Below are positions 2,349 to 36,650 of a stretch of DNA of 64,000 nt, one piece after another. The translations under genes were made by a program, and so were the position numbers. The stretch is taken from positions 1 to 64,000 of the IMG/VR virus record IMGVR_UViG_3300002835_000122; one strand, written 5' to 3'. Below the pieces are notes generated by a model, which made no database searches, was not told the DNA's origin, and was given only the letters and a program-made list of their open reading frames with translations. The DNA is from a virus. How positions within the stretch are numbered: the stretch's first letter is position 1; each line of letters opens with the position of its first letter.

Positions 2349-4493
2349 TTAACCTTCTTCGTTGTGTTTAAATTTAACTCTTACACTATCTATTGACGGA
2401 GACACCAATGGATTATCTGATCTATATAGATCTGCTCTATATCGAACTGCACTAACCGGCTTAGTTACCTCTGAGTAATATTTGATTTGAGAGACTCCAT
2501 ATAAATACTGCGATGAAATTATTTCTCTAGAACCAAAAACATTATCTATTGTAAATACAAATGAAGAATTGGAAACGCGCTGTCTAAATTCATATGGATC
2601 TAGATAGCTATAATAGTCTAAAAATAAAGTTCCGTAATCAGATATTGACTTTCCAGACATTATATTAAAAGTAATTAATCCTTCAAAGTTTTTATCATAA
2701 ACAATTTTTATGAAGTTTATTCCCTTTTTGAAATCCCACTGAACATCTTTGCTTAATGTACCAGAGGGAAGATCTGCTATTAGAGTATCATTCAGATATA
2801 TTGCTAGATTAAAATCTTCTCTACTTTTTGTTACGACGTGTACTGCAGAGTTTTCTGCATCACAGTTGATCTTACCGTCCAGTAGACCAGAGCATATACT
2901 ATTAAATCCTGGACTAATAGAACTAAGCTGATTTGTTATTGGAGAACTAGTAGTTACATCTGACGTATTAGCCGTGTTTATTTTTTCACTCCACACGTTT
3001 AAGGCTTTGTATATCTCCACTGCATTTACGGATGCGGATCTAATTATTGCATAGTTCTTAAATGAGTTTATCCCAGATAAAATGAAAGGCTGCTTAATAA
3101 CTTCTACGCCGGCCACCGCTATTCTATAAACGTTTTTATTGAAATATATAGAGGTGCTAGGGTTTAATTCATTTATGTTAGCGGATGTTGTATTTAAATC
3201 GATTAGCTCAAATCCACCTTTATTCTGCCCACCGTCCTCTATAGTTTTCATAGATTTAGTTGAGGATTGTAGGTTAACCGATGTTGGATTCGAATTATTA
3301 TTTGCATTGATTGGATCAATTGCTATCCAGTTAAAGTTTTCTACCCCCACTGCAGAAGGATTATCTACCGCAACAAAATAACTTACGTCATATCCAGATC
3401 CAACTTGATGTTCTACATCTAAGGCTATGGATTCTATCGTAAGCAGTCCGTTGTCAGTTTGTGGAATTGATAGTGGCCTAGAGATTAAGGTTGCTCTCTT
3501 ATCGTGATACTTTGCTCCTATGAAAAAATCTCTTAAACCAAAATCATATATATAAGGCTTATCGGAATCATTTGAAGTTTCATCAGGGTATGTTTTAAAT
3601 AATGTTAGTTTAACTTTAGAATACTTTAGGGGGTTGAAAGTAAAGGAAAATCTATCATAATCATTTCTTGAGTCTTTAATTTTTATTTGCTCTGGAATTG
3701 AAATGTCGTTAGGGGTCATGGTGACAATTACAGTAGTTGGACTTCCGGTCAAGAGGGTTCCCTCAATCTTAGATACTGTAAAATTATTATTAATTGGAAT
3801 GTCTATGTCCATTGAAACTATAGACATATTTGCAGATTTATATCTATAGCTCCAGTATGTATCTGTTAAGCCATCTAAAACATTGTCAAAATCATTTACG
3901 GAAGAATTACTGTAAACTTCATTGCCATTTTCCAATATTGAAACCTTTACGGATTGAAGATTGACTACGGATGAAGATATCATATCAAATATGCCAGAGC
4001 TAATTTTGGGAATAGTTACATTTCCTATAGATGTATCTACGAAAGCATTCGTGAGCGACATGTCTATATTGGTTGTATTGGAAAAATTATCTATAAAAGA
4101 ATAAAAAAATCCATCTGAATTTAGATTAGAAAATATTAACTGATCGACTTTACCTTCTAATTCTCTTCTTTTTGTTTTTAAATTTGACAATCTTTTATTT
4201 AACGATGTTATTGTTGACATTAACTCATAGTTGTTTTCGTTAATGCACTCATATAGTATTTCTAGATTAAATAAAGAATTAATCATAAGCTCATTAAGAT
4301 CAGAATGACTGATAAAATTTGACAAACTTATAGCATTATAGTCTACAGAAACGGGAAGGCCTAATTTATTACTTGAAAAGTATGTATTAAATATTTTTCT
4401 AATTTCTTCTTCTGAGGGTCTATTTCCTGAAGAGTAAAATAATTTATATATGTTATTTAAAAATTTTCTCTTTTGTATTGTTGCTATATTCAT
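2349..4493 (-). CDS. Baseplate/arm structural protein, 714 aa (arm paralogue family)
   Basis: The first 80 residues or so are loosely helical. Residues of about 85-120 form a charged helical stretch (LNKRLSNLKTKRRELEGKV) that should be a coiled coil. The shared motif VTIPKISSG comes next, followed by a domain containing NVLDGLTDTYW, which looks like a discoidin/galactose-binding-type beta sandwich, and then further beta domains. These shared elements tie it to the 417-, 867- and 914-aa proteins. Its ATG overlaps the stop of the 914-aa gene by four bases (ATGA). A possible role is a baseplate arm or receptor-binding tripod component; carbohydrate binding is only suggested by the discoidin-like motif. 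Confidence 0.8.
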   Translation of the reverse strand: MNIATIQKRKFLNNIYKLFYSSGNRPSEEEIRKIFNTYFSSNKLGLPVSVDYNAISLSNFISHSDLNELMINSLFNLEILYECINENNYELMSTITSLNKRLSNLKTKRRELEGKVDQLIFSNLNSDGFFYSFIDNFSNTTNIDMSLTNAFVDTSIGNVTIPKISSGIFDMISSSVVNLQSVKVSILENGNEVYSNSSVNDFDNVLDGLTDTYWSYRYKSANMSIVSMDIDIPINNNFTVSKIEGTLLTGSPTTVIVTMTPNDISIPEQIKIKDSRNDYDRFSFTFNPLKYSKVKLTLFKTYPDETSNDSDKPYIYDFGLRDFFIGAKYHDKRATLISRPLSIPQTDNGLLTIESIALDVEHQVGSGYDVSYFVAVDNPSAVGVENFNWIAIDPINANNNSNPTSVNLQSSTKSMKTIEDGGQNKGGFELIDLNTTSANINELNPSTSIYFNKNVYRIAVAGVEVIKQPFILSGINSFKNYAIIRSASVNAVEIYKALNVWSEKINTANTSDVTTSSPITNQLSSISPGFNSICSGLLDGKINCDAENSAVHVVTKSREDFNLAIYLNDTLIADLPSGTLSKDVQWDFKKGINFIKIVYDKNFEGLITFNIMSGKSISDYGTLFLDYYSYLDPYEFRQRVSNSSFVFTIDNVFGSREIISSQYLYGVSQIKYYSEVTKPVSAVRYRADLYRSDNPLVSPSIDSVRVKFKHNEEG

Positions 4494-7234
4494 GATCTTT
4501 TGACCTTAGCTATTAGTTGATAAGAGTATATGCTTGGAGTAAAGTTTAGCTTATTCTTTTTAGTTATTTTTATTTTAACTAGAATATTTCTTACCTCTCT
4601 CGGCACTGCGGGATAAGTAAGATATGAAGCTCCGGAAAGTCTATACTCATTTAGTACTGACTGATTGAAGAACAAAACTTCTGGTATGCCTGAGAAGTCC
4701 AATTGTATAGGAGATATTTGAATCCAGTTATTGCCTCCGTCTACAGAGATGTATCCTAGTAGGGATATATTTTTTAACATAGCTTCGTCAATATTGGAAT
4801 CGATACTTAGCATCGCTGATTCCACTGGAAAGTCAAAGTTAAACGGCAGAGAAACAATCTCTAATTGAGAATTAAATATTTCTTTGTAAACTTCTATATC
4901 TCTTAGGCCTATACACCAACGTTTAGCTGGATATCTTTCTTTGGCTGATTGCACCCTAACTGAATACGTTTTTATTCTTTCTTGCGCGGTAAAAGATTTC
5001 TCGACTACAGACATTGAATTTACTGTACTTCCGTCATCCAGTAGCGTTGGACCAATATTTGTAACCGTTAAAGTTAAATTATTTTCTGGTACCGTACCAC
5101 CAAGGCTTGTTCCAGGAATAGTAATGGTATCCCCTATGGCGTAGCCGGTACCATATTGAGTCATTGTGACTGTTGTGTTTCCACTGTAACTTGCGCTTGA
5201 CCCAGTTTTAGTAATAGTAAATATTGCGTTAGTGCCAGTTCCGCTGGTGGCGCTTTGCATAACTCCAGGATAAGCTGTCGCTCTAGTTGCAACTGTTAGA
5301 GTCAAGTCATTCGCGGGTGTTGCGCCACCAAGGTTTGTTCCAAGAATGGTGATCGTATCCCCTACGGCGTAGTTGGAACCACCATTAGTTATTGTAACTG
5401 TTATGTTACCACTGTAAGCGGTGCCAGAACCAGTTTTAACAATATTAAATACTGCTCCAGTACCAGTTCCGCTGGTGGCGCTTTGGGATCTTGCAATATA
5501 GGTTGCTTCAGCCGTGACGCTGGTTCCAGAAGCGGTAAATGTTGTAGCCCCTTGAACTAGAGCAGACTTGGTAATACTGGTTCCTGTAGCAGTAAATGTT
5601 GTGCCAGCTGGAACTAGGGCAGTATGGGACATATAAAGATCCATTAAATCGTCAAAATCTTTTTGAGCTGCGTTCATTGTGTCATAGTTTTTATTTTTTA
5701 TTTCATCTTCAGAATATTCTATTGACGATAGGAAGTATGCGGTCTTAATAACATTACCTGTTCCTAGCTCAAATTCAGAGTCCCATCTTTCAAAGTAAAC
5801 TTTTTCCTGCACATTTAATGGACTAGTTAAGGTTAGTTCTATAACATAAAATTTTCTTGCTACTGGTTTCTTTTTTATTGAAACATTAATAGTTTTAGCT
5901 GCGGATCCCAGTCTAGAATACTCTGTTGGATTAGACTGTGTGGGCAGTAGGTTGTATTTGTTGTATTCAACTTTTTCGTATATATCTTTACTCAGTGCAT
6001 CTGGATTAAATCTTTCCAAATTTACAAAAGGATTATTTCTATTCGATGCTGTTGGCTTCCAGTATAAGTGTTGAATATCTATATTGGAATACTCTGGCTG
6101 TGTAAAAGAGACTTGAATTTTAAAAACTTGTCTTTCCGAAAATCTTATTGTTGCTTTATCGTAGAAGTATGATTTAGCCATTTGTAGATTTAGTGGGACA
6201 AGTGAAGACCCTATGTATATGGGAGATTTAAGAATTTGCTCTGAAACCCCATCCTTACCGTATACTATTACACTGCTAACTTCTACATATTTCATAGAGC
6301 CAAAATATGGAGTAATGTCTATGCTATTTGCAACAGCACTGCTTGAGGATGCCAATTCCAAGTCAAGAACTAAAGGCTCATTCACTTGATGGTTTGACCA
6401 ATCTACTAAATCACCCTCTCCGGTTTTTGAGCTGCTAAATTCTGATTTAAGATATTTAAATTCATTTTGTCTTGCCGGAATAGATGGCTTAGGTGATGGG
6501 TTATTTTTGTCTACATTCAATGCTTCATATTCAAAGTAACTTAAAGGATTGGAATCTTTTATGCTGGTAAGATTATTCAATGTAGAGCTATTCTCAAATA
6601 CATATTTATAATCGCTACTTTGCTCAGCGTCTAGTGACTTGACTACCTGGTGGCTATTACCTATAAATCCTCCAGAGCTTAGTACTTTTACTAAATTTGC
6701 GTTCCATTTTTGAGTAGCTGATACTGAAAGGCTCATTATTCCATTTTTAATTAATGGATTAAATCCAGCTTGTATTTTTGAGTAATCTATTGAGTCGTCG
6801 TTATCAAAAGAGTCACCAACATAAAATATGTCATCAGCTGGGCTCCTAGAATACATCTGTAGGATCTTTGCTTTTGAAGCTATTCGTTCAGAAAATCTTT
6901 TTTCATTTTCTATTTCTTTTGTAAATAAATTGAACACACTAATAGATTTAGCATTTAATGAGTCTATTTGACCGGCAGCTATGTTAATGTCTGATGCAGA
7001 GCCTTCGAAAAATAAATTAACCTTTGAAGATATGGGTGGCTCCCCCTTAATGAAGGGGTCGTACTGAGTTAGCGGTGCGCCCATTTGTTGTTGCACCTCT
7101 GTTAAGATTTTTGAATATTCACTAGCTATTTCTTCTTTGGAAAAAATTCCTCTAGAATTTACTACGTTAATTAACCTATCTACTTTAATTAAAAGCTGCT
7201 GATAAGATAGTAGGTTTGGGGATAATTGTGTCAT
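4490..7234 (-). CDS. Baseplate/arm structural protein with inserted Gly/Thr repeat module, 914 aa
   Basis: The N-terminus is helical. It is followed by the family beta region (GDSFDNDDSIDY, then NGIMSLSVSATQKW) and strands such as FKIQVSFTQPEYSN. Between about residues 538 and 729 sits a block of different character: two short GxTTFTA(T/S)GTS(I/V)T copies and then two 76-residue repeats containing SATSGTGT, TVT(I/M)T and GDTITI-GT-LGG. Such Gly/Thr repeats are seen in tail fibre and virion proteins of aquatic phages. The flanks continue the family fold, so the repeats look like an insertion. The four-base overlap with the 714-aa gene suggests coupled translation. Function: outer baseplate or arm component, with the repeats perhaps surface-exposed. 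Confidence 0.8.
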   Translation of the reverse strand: MTQLSPNLLSYQQLLIKVDRLINVVNSRGIFSKEEIASEYSKILTEVQQQMGAPLTQYDPFIKGEPPISSKVNLFFEGSASDINIAAGQIDSLNAKSISVFNLFTKEIENEKRFSERIASKAKILQMYSRSPADDIFYVGDSFDNDDSIDYSKIQAGFNPLIKNGIMSLSVSATQKWNANLVKVLSSGGFIGNSHQVVKSLDAEQSSDYKYVFENSSTLNNLTSIKDSNPLSYFEYEALNVDKNNPSPKPSIPARQNEFKYLKSEFSSSKTGEGDLVDWSNHQVNEPLVLDLELASSSSAVANSIDITPYFGSMKYVEVSSVIVYGKDGVSEQILKSPIYIGSSLVPLNLQMAKSYFYDKATIRFSERQVFKIQVSFTQPEYSNIDIQHLYWKPTASNRNNPFVNLERFNPDALSKDIYEKVEYNKYNLLPTQSNPTEYSRLGSAAKTINVSIKKKPVARKFYVIELTLTSPLNVQEKVYFERWDSEFELGTGNVIKTAYFLSSIEYSEDEIKNKNYDTMNAAQKDFDDLMDLYMSHTALVPAGTTFTATGTSITKSALVQGATTFTASGTSVTAEATYIARSQSATSGTGTGAVFNIVKTGSGTAYSGNITVTITNGGSNYAVGDTITILGTNLGGATPANDLTLTVATRATAYPGVMQSATSGTGTNAIFTITKTGSSASYSGNTTVTMTQYGTGYAIGDTITIPGTSLGGTVPENNLTLTVTNIGPTLLDDGSTVNSMSVVEKSFTAQERIKTYSVRVQSAKERYPAKRWCIGLRDIEVYKEIFNSQLEIVSLPFNFDFPVESAMLSIDSNIDEAMLKNISLLGYISVDGGNNWIQISPIQLDFSGIPEVLFFNQSVLNEYRLSGASYLTYPAVPREVRNILVKIKITKKNKLNFTPSIYSYQLIAKVKRS
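5048..5620 (-). repeat. Tandem 228-nt (76-aa) repeats inside the 914-aa arm gene
   Basis: Two in-frame copies with a 228-base period are recognisable from the matching blocks starting at 5232 and 5460 (GTGCCAGTTCCGCTGG and GTACCAGTTCCGCTGG on the plus strand). Two shorter copies of about 36 bases precede them in reading order. The block is visibly more G+C-rich and more Gly/Thr-rich than the surrounding gene. Confidence 0.85.
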
Positions 7235-25451: not shown

Positions 25452-28400
25452 CTAAGTTCCGGGATTCAATGTAACTTGTTTTGGAATTAGCGCAGATTCT
25501 TCTGCGCTAATAACGGACTGTGATTCAATTAAAAGTTGCTTTGTGTATACTGTAGCTAGGTTATTGGCTACCAGTTCCCAGTTCAGACTAACTGGATGCC
25601 CATCCTCATAATACTCGTCCCAAAATATAGTAGGCCATTCATCTACTTTATTGTAAGTAGCTTCTAAGACCTTGAAGCAGACTAGGTCATTATAAAATCT
25701 ATTGAATTCTTGTTCCGGAATTCCATAATCATCTAATGCGCTAATTGACAGACTTAATGGTGGAGCATACTGAATATCTAAAGATTTAATTTTATCAAAA
25801 ATATTACTTCTTTTTATAAAAATTGGAGACTCTTTATAGAGTGAACCCAATCCTGGAAAATCTTTACCAAAGAACTCTTTAGTAACGGGGTTGTCCATGT
25901 CTGTTGTAACTATTGTTTTTCCTCGATTTAACATAAAGCACTGGTTAACAAAATCTTTTATTTGATTGATCATTGATTCTGGCTGGTAGTACCAGACAGT
26001 TCCCAGGACTCGATCGAAAACGTCTTTTGTATAATTTTGTAATCTATTTTCAGTAGCACCGGGTTCAAATTGAGCCTCAAATATAACGTTTGTATCTGCT
26101 CTGTTTGTAACTTTTATTCTTAAGACGAATACCCTATTTTTTATCTTTGCTTCCGTATACAACATAGCTCTACCTCCAGGAGTGGAAATAGGTGATATAG
26201 TTGTTCCATCGGCACCCGGCTCATTTGGAATAGACCCCACTTTTGTAAGACTTGTTTCGCCAGTATTTATTCCGTCAAAACGAACTGTAAATCTAGCGCC
26301 AGATATAACATCTTCGACATCAAACGTGTCACCGTCTTTAAACGTAGTAACTGTTACTATCACCTTAAATAAAGATGTTTGCAGATTTGCTTTTTCTGGA
26401 CCTAATCCAGTAAGACTAAGTACGCGAGCGTGCGTTAGGGCGTTTTCGTAATCGGTATATCTTACTAGATCTTTTATTTCTGTTTCTTGCCAGCCAAGAC
26501 TCTTTAGCAAGTCATCACTTCTTATGAAAGTATTTCCATCAGCGGTTTTGACTTTTGTTCTTGTGCCTAATATTCCTGGCAATAAAGCTTTAGTGTGATA
26601 TCTTCCGACGACCATGCCTTGGTTGTATGATAATCCTGCGTCCATTGGTTGACCATTTTTATTAAGATACTGGACATAGCAGCCATGCTGATCCAGTACG
26701 TTATCTCTTAACCATGTCCAACCCTTCCAGGCTAACTGGCCAACGATTGGAACTGCTCTTGCTACGCTTACGCCCACAACTTGCATAACAGTATCTGTCC
26801 CTGAAGCCTTACCCTGCCCCTTGCTTTCTATTTCTTGTCGTGCTTTATCTGGGAGACTCAGAGCGGTTTGATTTGCCATAATGTCTTTCATTAATGCGGA
26901 AGATCCGTGCGTATACTGAATTCCACCAATCATTTGAGTGCTCAGTGAATCTGCTAACGCATCTACGGAAATGTTTCCGCCCATGTTTATGCCAGTGTTT
27001 GATGCCATAATATTATCCATATAGAATCTAGTGTCATTTCTCATATTCTGCATGCTGAGCCATGAGTGGAGCCATGATGACATGAACCATCTAGAGGGAT
27101 CATTGACAGTCACTAGAGCGTTGGGTGTGACAGTAGTAATATATCCCATTTCTGAAGTGAAGTGATGTACTACTTGCTCTACTTCAAATATTCCATACAT
27201 TCTGTTGTAAACATCGGATAGATACACTAAGTCATGAGGCCTAATATCTGGATTGCCAATTAGCGTGAGTTCCCCACCATAAATATCTTTAATTGATTCC
27301 TTTAAATGAGATAGTGCTATTCTTCTTGCAGAAAGCTCATCTGGTGTGCCCTGTAATGTTTTTGCATATCCCCTAAATGTTTCTAGCGGGTGCATAAATG
27401 GGTGCAGTACTCCCAGGAAACCTGAGCCAATCATATTGTCATAATACAATCCAGTCTCTACTGTAGTTTCCGTTTGACGCTCAGATGGCGCACCCTTGTC
27501 TAACGCTACGGTAACTGGGTTTTTTCCATCTGATACTGCGGTGATAACGGTAGAAACATTGTTTAGATTCTCTTGAATTTGATTAGATATGATGTGAGAG
27601 AAAGAACTTAAGTAATGTATTCTTTGGAATGGTTGACGAATTTCTATTACCGGTTCTCCATATTCCCTAGTAAAAGGATTATCAACGGCTCTCAATAGAG
27701 AGCCAGGTCTGCCAAGTGAATAGTATATTGAATCATTTAATACTTTATTAAGAATGTGGGCTTGCTTACTAAAGTTTCCAACTTCAGAAAGTGCGTATCC
27801 CATTTGCATCATGCTCAACTTGAACATACCTAAGAGTGAGCTCAGACCATCCCCAATGGCTCCAAGTATTGGGCCTATATTTGCGCTATAAAAATCTCCT
27901 ATATCTTCATCTATTCCGCCAATAAATGTTGAAGAATTACTACCTTCTCCTTTTGTGCTAACTAATAATTTTAGGAATTTACTTTCATCTTTAGAATACT
28001 GGCTATAGGGGCTAATGAATGCTTCGAAAACTTTATCTACCGGCTTGAAAGACCATTGCCCATCTTCTCCGCCCCCACCTGCGGTAATAATTCCACGCTT
28101 TCTATCCGGCTTAAGAACTAACCAAGCCCTACCATAACCTGTACTCCAAAGCTTTTGCCTAAATAATCCAACCATTAATAGGAACAGCTGTTTAGGTGTA
28201 TTGATGACTTCAGCTAGCTTTATTGCTGCCGCTGGATCCTCTTTATTCTCAATTGAAATTGAAAGCGCGTTATTAATTACCTTTGATTCAAAAAAGTTTA
28301 ATCTAATTCCATCTAGAGATCTAGAAATGACGCTATTGAAGTACTGTATTATTCCAGCGTCTCCGCGTATTCCCTTACTTTCGTAATCTATATAGTTTTT

Positions 28401-31400
28401 TCTAATAAATTCTACAGCTTCTATTCTAGATGAGGCACCACTAAAGCCGACACCAGATCCCAAGTCAGTCGTAGTGTCTGGCTCGTTAAAAAAGTCAGAA
28501 CCTAAAAGAATAGCCAATTCATCTACTCCCGTACCATCAGTTGCGGAAAGACCAGGAATGCTTACAGTGGATTGTGAGAAATTTTGAAATGGAGTATTGC
28601 TACTTGCTCCTAGTATTCTTTTGAACTCTTTAGGAAAAGGATCAGTTGAGTCAGCGTCCAAGCCATAATGTCTAGTGAATATGGCTTTAACGCTATCGTA
28701 TGTGTGATAGCCAAATCTAAATTGGTCCCAGATATCTGCAGCTTGACTAAGGGTTCTTCCATTTCCCGCAATCACTGAAACATTGGGATCATAATTTTCA
28801 TCATAAAAAGATCTAGCCTCTACCGATATACCATCCATCGCTGAATAAACCGGAGCAAAGCCTACTCGTCCACTGCCAGTTTCTTCATTTCCTGTTGTAA
28901 GAAGCTCGGCATCTAGGCGTTTATATAATTCGCCTTTATCTAGAGCATCATAATTTAAATCTACGATTGCTTGAAAGTAGCTTGGGTTGTCACCGCTAGC
29001 AAGTATATTTCCACCATATTCATAACTATAGGAAGTGACTTCGGAATTTGTTGCAGAGTATTCTTCTAGTGAGCTATCGGAATTTTTTAAGTAACGTTCT
29101 GCGGCATCTGCTGGATACTGTGACATGTTGCCTATGTCCAAAGATGTCTTTGAAGCGGTAAACTTATTAGCATCTCCGTTGTCGTCTATAGCGAAATTAC
29201 CAAAACCAATAATATAAGAATTTTTATCTGCGTCATTAAAAAATCTTTTTACTGGTGCTGCGGCGGACGAAACAACTCCTAATGGAGTATCGTCAGGAAC
29301 AAATCCAAAAAAACAATCAACATCTCGCGGGAAAGTGCTTAGTCCTGTTTCAGCTTCTATTTTTTCCAGAAGAGAATTACCAGTGTCTGCTCTATCATGC
29401 AGTAAAATATTTGCCCACGCTGGCAGGGACTCCGCTAGCTGACTGCCATCTGCGGCTATTTTGTCATCTATTGTAGAAACAAAAGTACCCAAGTACCACG
29501 CAGCGTCAGGGGATACGACTGCGTCAACATCATCGTCACCTTCTCCCCATAGGAAATAAGCTGGAGCACAAACGACTGCCCTTCCTGTTAAGGGGCTAAA
29601 TACAAGTACTCTTCTTTTTTTATAATCCGCTGCACTCCCGTATAGATCTTCAAATTTATATACTTGTTTAAACTTTTCCAAAGAGGCGTCTACTGTGTCA
29701 GGCTTGTATGGCCATCGCATTGCTATATAAAACATCTCCTCCTCTTTGGTAGCGGGAGATCCCCATTCCTCGTATGATATAGGCTGACTTAATTCATACT
29801 CAAAACTAAAATCATCTTTATTATCTCCAGAGGAAGCTACTACGCTATTAACTGTCTGAAAATCTGTAGGTATATTTTGTGAGTAAACTGATGGCAGTGG
29901 CATTTTGCTGTACACTGTTTTATTTAGACTAATTAGATCAGACACGCCTGAGTCGATTGTTACTAGAAGACTACTAAAGCCTAAGGGCCTATCTAGTTCT
30001 AGGTTGCCAGAACTAGGCTTAATGGTAATTTTTGCTTCATTCAAAAACTCTGCTTCTAATTGCAGAAAGTATATGAGATTAGCAGAAAGTGCGGCTCCGC
30101 CTGTTGAAAAGGATTTTAAAGCAGCTTCGCTAAATCGTTCCTGTAGATTTTGCCTTTTAGACATATTTGACAATCGCGCTTCATTGCTGTCGCCATCTTC
30201 AGCTGAGTCTATAATCTTGGCTATTGGTGTAAGGGGGCTAAGCCAACCGCCGAAACCAAGTAAATCAACAACGTTAGATGTGCCTGATGCTTGATTACCA
30301 CCAATGTCGCTTAAATATTCTCCAAATAATCCACCATCTCTAACTTCGTAAGATTTTTTGTCAAGAATTGTATCTTCTGATATTGTATAGTACGGGTATT
30401 GAAATCTTGGGGGAATATTTTCTATTTGCTTATGTTCTTGAGTTATACTTGCATAGGTTTTTTCTCCGCCGATTGGTAGGTGAAAGCCCATTTTAACCGT
30501 ACCTGCACTAACTGGTAGCTGAGATAGAATGATATTATTACCATCTGCGTCTTTGCTAACTCTTTTTGTAGCTAACTGTGAGTTAAAGTTTAGTAGTTTT
30601 CCTGTTAATCTTTTTGTGGGAGCGTATATTCCAGTAGAGGAAGCCTGATCTTTTGCTAGCGTAGCCATGAAATCGCTAAGTTCTGAAGATCTTTTAAAAG
30701 CTTCGTAATCGGCAAGTGAATTTGCTTGCCTATTAACATTGTCCATAACCATCTGTATATCTTCATCCGCACTTCTGTGCTTTGGGTAGCCGGGAAGGTC
30801 TAATTCATTAGCTTTCTTCACACTTGGGAAACCCGTAGTCACTGGAACTACGCCAGAAGTATATAACCAATGCGGCTTTCCATAGAAAATAGTAGACCTA
30901 TCCTCAAAGGGTCTAACTGCTACTATGTAATTTGGTAACAGCCTTGCACATATCTGGAAAAGATCCCATACGGTTCGCATGTATGTTTGTGCGCGGAATG
31001 ACACTTCATCAAATCCGCTTAAGTCATCATCAGCATTGGGGGAAATGATTCCCATTGTTCTGAATACATTAGTGCCACCTCTACCTCTCAGTAGCCCCAT
31101 AAGTGCTCCGCCTCCGGCGAGTCCTGCGACAGCATTAACTCCTGGTATGGCAGCAATTCCAGCTGTTAATCCACCCAATAGAACATTCTTTACGGCTCCT
31201 GCTCTTCCTTCTGCTGAAACTAACTTATTATCCTCAACAATAGAATCTATGGTATTACTGGAAGACACCGAACCATTTTGAGCCTCTGTGATTAACCTAT
31301 TCCATGATCTATCGGTACCAGCTTCCAAATATCTTTGACCAGCTAAAGTTTTGCCATCGTCTTCTACTAGCGATGATGCTGTCGACCAACCATCATCTAG

Positions 31401-34400
31401 GTCTCCTCCTAGGAATTGTGCAAATCCCGTTCCATTTCCAGGATAAATATTTCTTTTATATAATTCAAGATCTACCTCTGCGCAAAAGTTGGACATTAGT
31501 TGTCCCATACTTGTCATTATGGTGCCGTCTCCAAAAAATGTACTAACGGGATTTCTTTGGAATATATTTGTTGATAATTTAAATGTTGCTGCATTAGCTG
31601 CTCCGCCCAAGTCACCCCGTCCCACATTGGAGTAGGCATTGGAAACAACATTTCTCAGTCCATCGGCTCTTTGTTTTTCAACTTCGTTAATTGGTTCATA
31701 TAGCATTGTGCCGAAGTGTCTAATTCCAAAACGATTCTCGGAAAATATAGTTCCATTTGTTGCTCTAGCTAAAGCCTCTCTTGTTCTGGATGCGCCCATG
31801 CTCAAAAGCCTAACCATTAAATCTCTTGGTTCAGAAAGATACATTCCAGTATCTACTCCACCATCAATTTTTCCAGAGTCACCCTTTTTATTTGTTGAGT
31901 TAACAATAGCGCCAAGTTCAATTGCGTCAGATTGGGCAGTGACAGTAACTATTTCGCCTTCTTCAACGTTGGTTATGACTCCGTTAAACAAAGTTTGCAA
32001 AGAATTTGGATTTGATCCATAGCCTCCTCTGAGGTGAACTCTAACTCCTGGCTTTAATCTTATATTATTAATATCAACTACGTAGTCATTTCTCATTCCT
32101 GAGACAATATTTTTAGCTACATTTAAAGTCCTGTCTAAGATAGCGCTAATTCCATCCGCATAGCTCAACGGATCGCTATTGAAGTCGTCATTTCGCGCAT
32201 TAAATATATCTGTAGATGGGCGTGTTGTTAATTTTGAGTACATATTTGAGACTCTTAATATTAAGGTATCTCCCAGTAAATCTTCAGATGATACAACTGA
32301 AAAATCTATAACAGATTGAAGACCATAGAAATTATCAAAAAGTTTGACTCCTGCAAACATTCCCCCTTCGTCTATCAGCCATAACATGTAGGTCGGAAAT
32401 GCTCTAAGCATTCGGCCAGATATGTCTCTGTACTGAACATCATTTAACATCTTTTCCATGTGATTATTAAATGAGCCGTCGTAAGCTTTTTGGTATTCAG
32501 ACAATGGCTGAGCTCCACTAATTCCAGTCAAAGATTTATCACAACCAACGTCTGGAGTTTGCATGTCTTTCGTGTAATTGCTTTCAATTTTTTTTGCGCC
32601 ATCAGATTCAATTTTAACATTAGTTCCATCTGCTGTCAGATAAAATCTTCCATTATCTTTATTTATATATCCGAAATGGGACCCCAAAACGGTATACATA
32701 ATTGCAGGTATCTCTTTAGGGTCATTTACTTCTGGATTAGCTAGTGGCATCAAATATATCATTTTATGAAATTCAACTTCGTCTGGATCAAAACTGACAG
32801 ATTCCTCTTCGGCCAGTTTGCTAGTCGCTAATATAGTTTTAATCATATTTTCTGTCGCTGCATTTGTCACCCCCACATTTCCTATGACAAATGGTGATCC
32901 ATTAATTTCTTCAAAAACTGGGTCCGCCTCAGAGGATTGCGAAGCTAGAAATAGGTAATCAGTTAACAGAGTACTTTTTGAAACGTCAGCGTTTGCTTCG
33001 TTAATTACTTGTTGAAAGATAGAAACAAAATTATGTGGACTAATTCCAGATTGATTTACGTAATCTATTATTTCGTTAATTAAATCTTCGTTAGTCTGTA
33101 CTCTTGCGTCTACTGCGGCTGCGTTAGTTGCGTTAGTTACTGAATATCTTCTAAGGAAATTCCTAACTGTATTTTTTACAGATTCAATTTTTTGTTCAAT
33201 TGCATCGGCTGATCCCTTAAAGAAGTCATCAGAGCTATCAAAAGTGAAATTTTTAGTTAAATCTATCTGGATAGTGGTATTATTTATGATATCGCGATCA
33301 AACATTTCAAAACTTCTAAAATAGAAATCTGGATCTAGATTGCCAACGATATCTCCTTCCGTATTTTTGACGCCCAATGGAAGGTCTGGATAGGCGTTAA
33401 ACGATCCCCATAGCTGCTTCATTCTCAGGAAAGGGTTTCTCTTTGTACCAAAATGCTCAATCAATTCCGTCTGTTGCTTTGAGGACATTTTTTCTCTTTG
33501 CTGTTGGAATATATCAAAGTCCACTAAGCTCAACTGTACTGCATAGACATGAGGAAAGTTGGGTATGGTGTCAACCTTATAGTTAAGGGGAAGAACATAT
33601 TTGATTCCGCATAAAGCTGTTATGATATTTTTTATTCCTAGAAATCCTATAACACCAGTAGAGTGCTCAAGTCTAGCTAACGCATTAGTATGATCAAATA
33701 CTGATCTAATTTTTAATAATTCTTTTTCGCCAAAAACAGTCATCGATATATTAATGTAACTGTCCTTGCCCCCAATGTACTGATAACTTGGTTCGTCTTG
33801 CATTTGGATCTGTAGCTTTGCTAGATTATTCCCCATTGATATACTAACGCCATTTACTATGGCGGTCTTTGGGTCAAGATCTACTCGATTCATTGGAACT
33901 TCCCACTCATTGAACTGGTAGTCTCCATCTTTTAATCTTGTTGCTTCCATCATATTTTTGATGAAGCCGTCAGTAAAAAATCTTTCATACAGATTGACCT
34001 GAAAGGCTTCAGTAACTTGCTGTGCAATTTTTTCTCTATCTGGTTCTACTCCAGCGCTTTGTGTCTGTCTGACAAATTCCTCATCAATAAGTTTTTCCAA
34101 AATAGTTCCAGACGAACTAGCTCTTTTGTGAAGTTCTTTTTTGATATTGTTTAAACTACCCTGAGCTAATATTCCATCAAAAAAGTATGACTCTGCCGTA
34201 CTAGGGTATTGTTCGAAGTAACCGTTTACTCCCCGAAGTTCTATCTTTTCTTGATAATCTAAGAACCATCTTTTTTCTTCATTATCTAATCTTGTATTGT
34301 TATTAGATATAAACGATTGCGCTAGGTAAAGGTAAACTTTTTTATATTGATCAGTAGTCGAGATGCCAGCTGTCAAAATATCAATTGCACCTTTAGCCAT

Positions 34401-36650
34401 ATTATTGATAGATTTCGGAAAGTTTGATTCGGTAGCCATTGAAGCAATATCTTTAATATCTTTTATTAAAGGAGTCTCCAAAGTTCTTTCTATTCCAAAT
34501 GAATTAAGAAGTTTATCCCATAGGCCGGAAGCTGTATCGTTTAATATTTTTTCTTGTTCACTTCTAAAGGAAGTGTTGTCTGGTAAGAATATTTTTGTCT
34601 GTGTCTCAGCCGGAGTAAATAAAGTTATATTACTTCCGTCTCTCCATTGTGAGATAATATTAGTTGATAACACATCATTTTCAAAAGAATTTTTTCTTTC
34701 GAATTCAAAATCTTCCTGCTGTTCCATTAAACCAGATACGTCTACACCTATATGTGTTCCATAGTCAATCACATCCACGTTAGCTGTGTCCGAAGGCTTA
34801 TTGTCAGACGTCTTTAATAGGAAGCTTTCATTGACATATTTGTGCATTTCTCCAGCGGCTTTGCCCATATACTGACGATATTTACCCCAGTGTATCGCCT
34901 GATTAAAATCTTTTAACATCGGCAGGAATGGCTTGTGATTAAAGTGGACCATTTCCAAATCAATGACTAAAGCAAATGGATAATTTGGAACTGTTGATAC
35001 TGACATATTGGAAAGTCCAACAGCAGTAATTCCATGTATTGAGTTAAGGTATTGGTTTTTTATTGGTAATATTGGCGAGTACTTAAAGGCTGCAACCAAA
35101 CCCCTGAGAGAAGAAAGAAATTTATCTATTTTTGCTTCATCATCTCCACCATTTTTGAAGTTAATTGTAAAGCTTTCGTCTAGACTTATTGTTGCCGCGT
35201 TGTCTATTGACAAGCCCCATATCTCTTCATAGTTAGGAAAGAAGAGCCGCATAGAAATAATAGTTTCCTTATAACCTGCGTTAAACTTAGGAGTATTTTT
35301 TTGTCTAATAGCTCCACCAGTTAATGATCCTGTTTTGTAATTAGAATTAACACTAATTGAAATCGGAGGAACGTAGAAATTTGCCGCGCCTAATCGAAGA
35401 TGAAACATATCTGGTTTTCTAGGTGGAATGTTTTCCCTAAAAGGAAAATCTTCAATTGCTTTTTTAATTTGTTGTGCGGTATTTTTTATCTGAAAAGCCA
35501 AGGTAAATATTGGCCTATTATCTTTGGTGACTCCAAAAGCTCTTTCTAAAGATATAATTGCATCGGCTTCATTATTCAGTGTGTCTTCTGATCCACCACC
35601 TTGACCGTTATTGGAGTAGTCTCCGACTGCTGCTAGAGCATCAAAGACAAAGGTAACTAGGCCTGGAAAATAAAAATTAATTATTGAAAATGATATTGGA
35701 TCTTTTTGAAGATTATAAACTACTTCACTTAATAATGTTAACCACGGCGTATCTATTGCCGGATCAATATATTCATCTATTGATCTTTTAACTGTTGCAA
35801 CACTCTGCAGTCTTTTTTTTGCAAAATTGCTCATTTCATACGCAAATGATGCTAGATAAAGTAGTCCTGTAGACTCCAACTTTGAGTAAACGCTTTTTGT
35901 TGCATCTTCGTTTAAAGTTGCAACATCGTTGTTGCTATTAGTTGAAAGAACCCTTAGCGCCTTAATTCTAACTTCTTGACTTGCACTACCCCCTCTTGTG
36001 TATTCGAAGAATCCGTCTACTGCAGATTCTACATCCATACTGCTACTAGCTCTGAATATAAAATTACGAATATTTGCATAAGCTTGATCTTCACTGTAAT
36101 TATCTTCTAATTCTTTTTCATCTTCAGAAGATCTAGATTGCTCAGCGTTAGATATTTCAATTAGAACTGTGTCATCAATATCTCTTCCATTTGCAGTGGT
36201 ATTCCATAGTTGCAATCTGGATAATACTTTACCTGCTAAAAGCTTTGTGGTATTGGGATAATAGCCAGAGTATGCATAATTTGCAATGAAATGATAGATT
36301 ACGGCATCTTCGCTGCCTAGATTCGGATTAGGAATGTTGATTGAATTTTCGACATAAGTATTGTATTCCGGTACGACGATTGATGTCTCCGTAGGTATTC
36401 CAAATATAAAAGTAGAAACGGCTATTCTATAGGCAACTAATGAATAGTTATCGTTTTCACCATACTCAAGAAGGTTTTTACCCTTATATTCATGTACAGC
36501 TAAACCACCTGGCGAACCATCATTAAAAAATCGAGATAATTTATCAGCACTGGTGCTTGGATCCGATAGTAATTGTGTTACCTCTTCATATAAGCTAGGA
36601 TGCTCAACAATGTATTTTAGTACATTTTTAGATATTGTATTAATTGCCAT
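25452..36650 (-). CDS. Giant multidomain baseplate hub protein, 3732 aa
   Basis: An 11.2-kb uninterrupted frame. Visible segments: residues 410-595 and 923-1054 are two diverged copies of a hub-type domain (STVPNYPFALVIDLEM versus DTIPNFPHVYAVQLSL). Around 1534-1580 is a gp27/gpD-like beta segment (LKPGVRVHLRGGYG, then LFNGVITNVEEGEIVTVTAQ). A Gly/Ala hydrophobic stretch lies at 1823-1857, and a second hub-like beta domain at about 3127-3180 (DIRPHDLVYLSDVYNRMYG). A staphylococcal-nuclease-like domain spans about 3425-3580. The ATG at 36650 has AGGAAAG upstream. Its place between the tape measure and the lysin/spike genes, and the hub-like domains, make a central hub and injection-tip role likely. 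Most of the chain is unassigned. Confidence 0.85.
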   Translation of the reverse strand: MAINTISKNVLKYIVEHPSLYEEVTQLLSDPSTSADKLSRFFNDGSPGGLAVHEYKGKNLLEYGENDNYSLVAYRIAVSTFIFGIPTETSIVVPEYNTYVENSINIPNPNLGSEDAVIYHFIANYAYSGYYPNTTKLLAGKVLSRLQLWNTTANGRDIDDTVLIEISNAEQSRSSEDEKELEDNYSEDQAYANIRNFIFRASSSMDVESAVDGFFEYTRGGSASQEVRIKALRVLSTNSNNDVATLNEDATKSVYSKLESTGLLYLASFAYEMSNFAKKRLQSVATVKRSIDEYIDPAIDTPWLTLLSEVVYNLQKDPISFSIINFYFPGLVTFVFDALAAVGDYSNNGQGGGSEDTLNNEADAIISLERAFGVTKDNRPIFTLAFQIKNTAQQIKKAIEDFPFRENIPPRKPDMFHLRLGAANFYVPPISISVNSNYKTGSLTGGAIRQKNTPKFNAGYKETIISMRLFFPNYEEIWGLSIDNAATISLDESFTINFKNGGDDEAKIDKFLSSLRGLVAAFKYSPILPIKNQYLNSIHGITAVGLSNMSVSTVPNYPFALVIDLEMVHFNHKPFLPMLKDFNQAIHWGKYRQYMGKAAGEMHKYVNESFLLKTSDNKPSDTANVDVIDYGTHIGVDVSGLMEQQEDFEFERKNSFENDVLSTNIISQWRDGSNITLFTPAETQTKIFLPDNTSFRSEQEKILNDTASGLWDKLLNSFGIERTLETPLIKDIKDIASMATESNFPKSINNMAKGAIDILTAGISTTDQYKKVYLYLAQSFISNNNTRLDNEEKRWFLDYQEKIELRGVNGYFEQYPSTAESYFFDGILAQGSLNNIKKELHKRASSSGTILEKLIDEEFVRQTQSAGVEPDREKIAQQVTEAFQVNLYERFFTDGFIKNMMEATRLKDGDYQFNEWEVPMNRVDLDPKTAIVNGVSISMGNNLAKLQIQMQDEPSYQYIGGKDSYINISMTVFGEKELLKIRSVFDHTNALARLEHSTGVIGFLGIKNIITALCGIKYVLPLNYKVDTIPNFPHVYAVQLSLVDFDIFQQQREKMSSKQQTELIEHFGTKRNPFLRMKQLWGSFNAYPDLPLGVKNTEGDIVGNLDPDFYFRSFEMFDRDIINNTTIQIDLTKNFTFDSSDDFFKGSADAIEQKIESVKNTVRNFLRRYSVTNATNAAAVDARVQTNEDLINEIIDYVNQSGISPHNFVSIFQQVINEANADVSKSTLLTDYLFLASQSSEADPVFEEINGSPFVIGNVGVTNAATENMIKTILATSKLAEEESVSFDPDEVEFHKMIYLMPLANPEVNDPKEIPAIMYTVLGSHFGYINKDNGRFYLTADGTNVKIESDGAKKIESNYTKDMQTPDVGCDKSLTGISGAQPLSEYQKAYDGSFNNHMEKMLNDVQYRDISGRMLRAFPTYMLWLIDEGGMFAGVKLFDNFYGLQSVIDFSVVSSEDLLGDTLILRVSNMYSKLTTRPSTDIFNARNDDFNSDPLSYADGISAILDRTLNVAKNIVSGMRNDYVVDINNIRLKPGVRVHLRGGYGSNPNSLQTLFNGVITNVEEGEIVTVTAQSDAIELGAIVNSTNKKGDSGKIDGGVDTGMYLSEPRDLMVRLLSMGASRTREALARATNGTIFSENRFGIRHFGTMLYEPINEVEKQRADGLRNVVSNAYSNVGRGDLGGAANAATFKLSTNIFQRNPVSTFFGDGTIMTSMGQLMSNFCAEVDLELYKRNIYPGNGTGFAQFLGGDLDDGWSTASSLVEDDGKTLAGQRYLEAGTDRSWNRLITEAQNGSVSSSNTIDSIVEDNKLVSAEGRAGAVKNVLLGGLTAGIAAIPGVNAVAGLAGGGALMGLLRGRGGTNVFRTMGIISPNADDDLSGFDEVSFRAQTYMRTVWDLFQICARLLPNYIVAVRPFEDRSTIFYGKPHWLYTSGVVPVTTGFPSVKKANELDLPGYPKHRSADEDIQMVMDNVNRQANSLADYEAFKRSSELSDFMATLAKDQASSTGIYAPTKRLTGKLLNFNSQLATKRVSKDADGNNIILSQLPVSAGTVKMGFHLPIGGEKTYASITQEHKQIENIPPRFQYPYYTISEDTILDKKSYEVRDGGLFGEYLSDIGGNQASGTSNVVDLLGFGGWLSPLTPIAKIIDSAEDGDSNEARLSNMSKRQNLQERFSEAALKSFSTGGAALSANLIYFLQLEAEFLNEAKITIKPSSGNLELDRPLGFSSLLVTIDSGVSDLISLNKTVYSKMPLPSVYSQNIPTDFQTVNSVVASSGDNKDDFSFEYELSQPISYEEWGSPATKEEEMFYIAMRWPYKPDTVDASLEKFKQVYKFEDLYGSAADYKKRRVLVFSPLTGRAVVCAPAYFLWGEGDDDVDAVVSPDAAWYLGTFVSTIDDKIAADGSQLAESLPAWANILLHDRADTGNSLLEKIEAETGLSTFPRDVDCFFGFVPDDTPLGVVSSAAAPVKRFFNDADKNSYIIGFGNFAIDDNGDANKFTASKTSLDIGNMSQYPADAAERYLKNSDSSLEEYSATNSEVTSYSYEYGGNILASGDNPSYFQAIVDLNYDALDKGELYKRLDAELLTTGNEETGSGRVGFAPVYSAMDGISVEARSFYDENYDPNVSVIAGNGRTLSQAADIWDQFRFGYHTYDSVKAIFTRHYGLDADSTDPFPKEFKRILGASSNTPFQNFSQSTVSIPGLSATDGTGVDELAILLGSDFFNEPDTTTDLGSGVGFSGASSRIEAVEFIRKNYIDYESKGIRGDAGIIQYFNSVISRSLDGIRLNFFESKVINNALSISIENKEDPAAAIKLAEVINTPKQLFLLMVGLFRQKLWSTGYGRAWLVLKPDRKRGIITAGGGGEDGQWSFKPVDKVFEAFISPYSQYSKDESKFLKLLVSTKGEGSNSSTFIGGIDEDIGDFYSANIGPILGAIGDGLSSLLGMFKLSMMQMGYALSEVGNFSKQAHILNKVLNDSIYYSLGRPGSLLRAVDNPFTREYGEPVIEIRQPFQRIHYLSSFSHIISNQIQENLNNVSTVITAVSDGKNPVTVALDKGAPSERQTETTVETGLYYDNMIGSGFLGVLHPFMHPLETFRGYAKTLQGTPDELSARRIALSHLKESIKDIYGGELTLIGNPDIRPHDLVYLSDVYNRMYGIFEVEQVVHHFTSEMGYITTVTPNALVTVNDPSRWFMSSWLHSWLSMQNMRNDTRFYMDNIMASNTGINMGGNISVDALADSLSTQMIGGIQYTHGSSALMKDIMANQTALSLPDKARQEIESKGQGKASGTDTVMQVVGVSVARAVPIVGQLAWKGWTWLRDNVLDQHGCYVQYLNKNGQPMDAGLSYNQGMVVGRYHTKALLPGILGTRTKVKTADGNTFIRSDDLLKSLGWQETEIKDLVRYTDYENALTHARVLSLTGLGPEKANLQTSLFKVIVTVTTFKDGDTFDVEDVISGARFTVRFDGINTGETSLTKVGSIPNEPGADGTTISPISTPGGRAMLYTEAKIKNRVFVLRIKVTNRADTNVIFEAQFEPGATENRLQNYTKDVFDRVLGTVWYYQPESMINQIKDFVNQCFMLNRGKTIVTTDMDNPVTKEFFGKDFPGLGSLYKESPIFIKRSNIFDKIKSLDIQYAPPLSLSISALDDYGIPEQEFNRFYNDLVCFKVLEATYNKVDEWPTIFWDEYYEDGHPVSLNWELVANNLATVYTKQLLIESQSVISAEESALIPKQVTLNPGT
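25911..26378 (-). other. Staphylococcal-nuclease-like (SNase/TNase) domain in the hub protein
   Basis: Residues of about 3425-3580 of the 3732-aa protein follow the SNase pattern. The DGDT motif is at 3439-3442. RFDGINTGE places R3457 and E3465 in the exact R-x7-E spacing of catalytic R35 and E43 of staphylococcal nuclease. DVFDRVLG puts R3547 where R87 lies (D-x3-R). The calcium ligand corresponding to D21 is present (D3441), but the D40 position is Asn (N3462) and P42 is Gly. The fold call is well supported; activity is uncertain because of the Asp-to-Asn change. Confidence 0.8.
33489..35423 (-). repeat. Diverged internal duplication of hub domains A and B
   Basis: Domain A (about 34866-35423) and domain B (about 33489-33884) of the hub gene share the order K-(E/D)-(T/S)-x-I-(S/N)-(M/I)-S/R, a helix, then G-I-x6-8-V-x-T-(V/I)-P-N-(Y/F)-P and a final strand ending V-x-F-(N/D). 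Identity is low, so this is an old protein-level duplication, not a DNA repeat. Confidence 0.65.

Follow-up and report, generated by a model that had tools for sequence, protein, structure and literature searches.

A divergent staphylococcal-nuclease-like domain at the C-terminus of a giant phage baseplate hub protein

Tail tips carry peptidoglycan and polysaccharide hydrolases; does the giant baseplate hub of a freshwater phage carry a nuclease, and is that nuclease a working enzyme? The stretch of DNA analysed, here termed the window, is 64,000 nucleotides of a 76-kb virus record that is itself a fragment. A first-pass annotation had noticed the residue pattern of staphylococcal nuclease (SNase) near the end of the hub protein. 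Should a conserved tail-tip nuclease prove real, a phage would at the start of infection also face nucleic acid, as a barrier or as a target.

The hub gene and the domain at its end

The hub gene and its relevant parts are placed as follows.

25452..36650, minus strand: giant baseplate hub gene, 3732 aa (open reading frame list and profile matches)
31656..32453, minus strand: conserved hub core, residues 1400-1665, the query for the family survey
27042..27341, minus strand: residues 3104-3203, a conserved hub domain preceding the nuclease-like one (PHROG_52 and homologue conservation)
25956..26378, minus strand: SNase-like core (OB barrel), residues 3425-3565 (AlphaFold, Foldseek, hhalign)
25638..25955, minus strand: residues 3566-3671, a lineage-specific, mostly helical insert that follows strand 5 and precedes the C-terminal helix (alignment and model)
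25545..25634, minus strand: residues 3673-3702 within PTIFWDEYYEDGHPVSLNWELVANNLATVY, putative C-terminal SNase helix motif (no other stretch of alignment A3 is as highly conserved)

The hub matches PHROG_20474 (E 2e-118) and also PHROG_8809; its residues 3104-3175 match PHROG_52, 'tail protein' (E 9e-4), and residues 3104-3203 are conserved in Moorella and Bacillus hubs as well. The homologue in Bacillus phage KLEB27-3 is annotated as 'putative baseplate protein', the matching BFVD structure carries the name 'Baseplate hub protein', and a baseplate wedge gene lies near the hub gene. Homology to annotated hub and baseplate proteins, combined with this baseplate gene neighbourhood, marks the product as a probable myovirus baseplate hub of the gp27/gpD type. 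Within it, window positions 34851-35453 and 33306-33953 (hub residues about 400-600 and about 900-1115) appear to be two copies of one module, which match each other weakly in several homologues. Elsewhere in the window, a 914-aa open reading frame (4490-7234) matches domain I of tail sheath Gp18 over a short length (E 8.5e-6, slightly below cut-off) and also matches a virion structural PHROG.

All the residues quoted by the first-pass annotation are exactly where it put them: DGDT at 3439-3442, R3457, E3465 and D3543-x3-R3547. The full spacing pattern turned up in 19 of 20,000 shuffles of the hub protein and on its own is suggestive evidence only; this rarity, taken with recurrence of the motif region in more than 40 distinct homologues, argues that the motif is not due to chance. 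Searching viral contigs with the hub C-terminus gave 61 loci, 32-95% identical, and the motif region is covered by all the distinct C-terminus relatives in the alignment except the interrupted L059. The hub frame of L059/L171 is broken around 10250, directly before a canonical SNase part (218-aa open reading frame), probably by assembly indels; gene splits considered there and at L044, L054, L027, L028, L048 and L052 were judged to be assembly frameshifts instead and were left unrepaired.

Profile comparisons divided between the window copy and its relatives. The window domain sequence alone found no Pfam match, falling short of the gathering score, and the best E among single homologues was about 0.1 (two homologues), but PHROG_452 was matched by 23 of the 29 aligned relatives (best E 9.6e-6); this profile is equivalent to an SNase model, since its strong loci are those of PF00565, and both profiles hit one set of 8 among 14 control genomes. 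Comparison by hhalign gave 97.0% probability (E 8.7e-11) with N-terminal hub SNases and 96.6% with cellular SNases, against 1.0% for a reversed-column alignment and 0.3% for an unrelated hub-core domain. The profile check of the domain that had been proposed thus came out negative for the window copy with PF00565 and positive through PHROG_452 and hhalign. Searches of PDB sequences with phmmer and hmmsearch found no related entry, and the C-terminal 515 aa had zero tblastn matches among 50,697 phage records, isolates surfacing only through the rest of the hub.

AlphaFold models were made of the core (mean pLDDT 76.6) and of residues 3395-3732 (mean pLDDT 76.9, pTM 0.75). In both the predicted order of elements is E-E-E-H-E-E-H, giving the SNase arrangement, an OB barrel whose strands 3 and 4 are separated by a helix and which is followed by C-terminal helices. 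By sequence, R3457, E3465 and R3547 are in register with SNase R35, E43 and R87. For both models Foldseek returned staphylococcal nuclease first in PDB (E 4.6e-4 for the core, 2.4e-4 for the C-terminus), bearing out the SNase fold that the first-pass annotation had anticipated, and the top 50 PDB matches were exclusively SNases and SND1; TM-scores were moderate (about 0.45-0.56), as expected of a divergent copy with long loops. The viral structure library ranked a 'Baseplate hub protein' best, then nucleases and TNase-like proteins.

Sequence profiles, predicted fold and residue conservation all support the presence of an SNase-like domain within the hub, and hub residues about 3425-3565, with the putative helix at about 3673-3702, are confirmed as a divergent SNase domain. 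That a short motif has been matched by chance in an unrelated domain, as the lack of a Pfam match for the window sequence alone might suggest, is accordingly very improbable: the agreement of profile, fold and family conservation largely refutes it. With the SNase/thermonuclease family (PF00565, PHROG_452) the domain shares OB-barrel topology, DGD-T, R35, E43, R87 and the C-terminal helix motif; it differs in having no Pfam match, Asn at D40, a helical insert and a location inside a 3732-aa structural protein. We prefer to call it 'SNase-like', rather than a member of PF00565, because of the missing Pfam match and the Asn.

The domain had been placed at 25911-26378. Its core does lie there, but no stop occurs at about 25911, and the helix motif (25545-25634) is found beyond the insert, which spans about 110 aa in the window hub, is largely helical in the model and is far shorter in L158, L163 and L164. 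When these compact relatives are aligned, the hub end at 3673-3702 (PTIFWDEYYEDGHPVSLNWELVANNLATVY) lines up with the C-terminal helix region of SNase, and alignment and motif together suggest that these residues form that helix. With the helix motif so placed, the SNase-like domain is the C-terminal domain of the hub, reaching almost to its end.

Active-site residues across the family

Thirty divergent homologues, down to about 30% identity, were aligned over the active site. In 25 of them D19, D21, T22, R35, E43 and R87 all belong to a set of 16 invariant columns, with Asn (19) or Asp (6) at position 40; the other five (L029, L028, L037, L038 and L054) make up what we term the degenerate clade.

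26325..26336, minus strand: DGDT motif, residues 3439-3442 (SNase D19, D21, T22); D21 in 30/30 homologues, T22 in 25/30
26280..26282, minus strand: R3457 (SNase R35); 30/30 homologues
26265..26267, minus strand: N3462 (SNase D40 position); N 19, D 6, I 5, Ile confined to the degenerate clade
26256..26258, minus strand: E3465 (SNase E43); 25/30, S or T in the degenerate clade
26010..26012, minus strand: R3547 (SNase R87); 25/30, K or D in the degenerate clade

Conservation in homologous hubs, which the first-pass annotation had made a condition of its proposal, is therefore found for R35 throughout and for E43 and R87 with exceptions that, as far as placed, are one clade: the members of the degenerate clade that were placed on trees group together in both trees, with support 99. 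Just three of the 16 invariants differ in every one of the five (T22 becomes E, E43 becomes S or T, R87 becomes K or D), position 40 being Ile, while W3677, D3678, Y3680, N3690, W3691, R3511 and G3460 are kept, as is the WDEYY/NWELV motif. Loss of the catalytic set jointly, with retention of the fold, is what would be expected if the set is the active site in the other lineages.

Position 40 in SNase is a Ca2+ ligand. Of the Ca2+ ligands the window domain has D21 and carries Asn at position 40, a reading of N3462 that both the sequence and the homologue alignment uphold. Asn here may alter Ca2+ binding but is not by itself a sign of decay, since it is present in 13 of 13 stand-alone canonical SNases examined from related phages, and Asp occurs in some of the close hub homologues. 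The C-terminal SNases of L158, L163 and L164 look canonical (e.g. IDGDT..LRFSGIDTQE..YERVLGTIF), and by eye the residue set is the same in 11 further relatives whose domain carries an insert of 85-185 aa, where their sequence is complete. An intact-looking active site is thus well supported.

SNase-like hub domains with an insert of 85-185 aa in the loop after E43 were seen in L116-L133, L144, L159 and L169.

N-terminal and C-terminal versions, and separate SNase genes

The survey by hub core search took in 80 viral and 8 genome loci. In the window's large clade the SNase domain is at the hub C-terminus; it is N-terminal in Moorella phage MTATph1, Bacillus phage KLEB27-3, L094, L098, L099 and L178, MAG-derived phages included, N-terminal with long inserts in L100, L102-L104, L120, L132, L138 and L141, and apparently degenerate at the N-terminus of L101, L110 and L128. 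No SNase domain was present in 11 hubs examined (L105-L109, L111-L114, L176, L181). The hubs of MTATph1 and vB_BauM_KLEB27-3 thus share with the window a homologous core and an SNase domain, and differ in the N-terminal position of the latter. The MTATph1 domain passes the PF00565 cut-off (E 8.7e-9, 36.2 bits against 21); the nearest NCBIfam model, at E 8e-7 and a score far under its cut-off, is a calcium-activated nuclease. Annotated only as an endolysin, the Moorella phage hub (L092:11089-17766) has, by eye, a lysozyme-like part besides its N-terminal SNase, and its C-terminus gives a weak VanY/M15-like match (E 0.0026). The position label needs few changes on the hub-core tree, which argues that SNase position is inherited within clades; the two versions may stem from two captures or from one relocation, long branches meeting on the tree.

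An N-terminal SNase-related domain was reported in 2007 on the hub homologue BtI1 by Hardies et al. (PMC2147016), who call its use obscure. BtI1, a homologue of Bacillus phage 0305phi8-36 gp147, resembles the window protein in being a large hub with a T4 gp27/P2 gpD-like part and an SNase-related domain, but carries the latter N-terminally, whereas the window's is C-terminal with an insert of about 110 aa; the section on BtI1 gives neither conservation nor structure data for the SNase part (PMC2147016). This paper is the sole report of a tail- or virion-borne SNase found in the open-licence literature. GBSV1-NSN was rejected as a precedent, its authors finding that phage nuclease not homologous to known nucleases (PMC2390534). 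A nuclease domain in a tail tip, which the first-pass annotation had called unexpected, is so not wholly, given BtI1 and the Moorella, Bacillus and MAG-derived versions. What is new here is a C-terminal variant of a known, unexplained hub-SNase arrangement, and the unexplained remark of 2007 becomes a widespread, testable pattern.

A small stand-alone SNase open reading frame, mostly of about 130-157 aa, occurs in 9 of the 10 related records searched first and in 7 more searched later; none occurs in the 76-kb window record, which is a fragment. In L063-L070 and L187-L193 a separate canonical SNase gene lies away from the hub (PF00565 E about 1e-13 to 1e-17). On the tree the stand-alone SNases examined cluster as one clade (99) and the C-terminal hub domains stand separately (91); recent transfer of the hub domain from the phages' stand-alone SNase is thus unsupported, the deep part of this tree being weak because of long branches. 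Since related phages have a separate canonical SNase gene as well, nuclease function need not reside in the hub.

What the hub domain may do

What was computed directly is the fold and the pattern of active-site residues, maintained across the family and lost jointly in one clade; the best reading is a tail-borne, probably Ca2+-dependent nuclease. We favour, by a modest degree of confidence, the view that in most lineages, the window's included, the hub SNase domain works as a metal-dependent phosphodiesterase at the far end of the tail, which faces the cell; against it count Asn40 and the missing Pfam match in the window, and the several hubs that have no SNase. Such a domain would face outward on the virion, like T4 tail lysozyme, and would depend on Ca2+, as SNase does, cutting DNA or RNA met during adsorption and penetration; its targets could be extracellular or biofilm DNA, or nucleic acid at the host surface or in the periplasm. 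SNase requires Ca2+ at levels typical outside the cell, from which we infer a gate: the enzyme would be active outside the cell and almost silent in the cytosol, so that the phage's own genome would be spared once inside. Generalised to the large phages of this hub family, as a tail-tip SNase at either terminus that is catalytic across deep divergence and acts as a Ca2+-gated nuclease during entry, the proposal is tentative and on balance doubtful. A tail-borne entry nuclease function has not been assigned to any phage tail in the openly searchable literature; the present pattern suggests that many large phages may bear, on the structure that makes first contact with the host, an enzyme that cuts DNA or RNA. 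By analogy, the T4 gp5-gp27 tail lysozyme hub and VgrG-effector fusions also bear an enzyme domain on a tail-tip hub, their enzymes being, unlike the window's, a peptidoglycan hydrolase or other effectors and not SNase.

Alternatively the SNase fold might be non-catalytic: as with the SN domains of Tudor-SN, it would be an OB module of the tail tip that binds nucleic acid or has a structural role. The degenerate clade, which keeps the fold residues and WDEYY/NWELV while having lost T22, E43 and R87, implies that a non-catalytic role exists at least there; further points in favour of this reading are the Asn that the window has at position 40, the large inserts in the loop after E43 in L116-L169, and degenerate SNase-like domains in another giant open reading frame. 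As a general account it is nevertheless unlikely, though it deserves weight: outside that clade the D21/T22/R35/E43/R87 set is invariant to about 30% identity, which is hard to explain unless those residues do catalysis or ligand binding. The 'structural remnant' that the first-pass annotation had entertained fits one side branch well, and only that, the active-site set being kept elsewhere (25/30). An effector injected with or before the DNA, cutting host nucleic acid in the manner of VgrG C-terminal effectors, would account for placement behind a hub domain at the C-terminus, as in VgrG-toxin fusions (PMC3482391); a shallow look saw neither release site nor partner inhibitor, a hub-bound SNase would face low cytosolic Ca2+, and a separate SNase gene can do intracellular nuclease work, and we regard this possibility as quite improbable. 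For the cell-facing nuclease that we favour the family is a natural experiment, most lineages having the intact site and one having kept the fold and lost the site, and it includes testable isolates, KLEB27-3 and MTATph1.

A degenerate SNase-like domain was also seen in another giant open reading frame of Gram-positive-type relatives (L184, L195-L201, L203 and L215, at about 1500-1740 of each). It is mostly under the Pfam cut-off and lacks the catalytic acids (e.g. 'NPIKLAGV..SIRAVVYSNGLNVNKTMVKRGLA'); the open reading frame that contains it is about 1860-2200 aa long and lies upstream of the hub.
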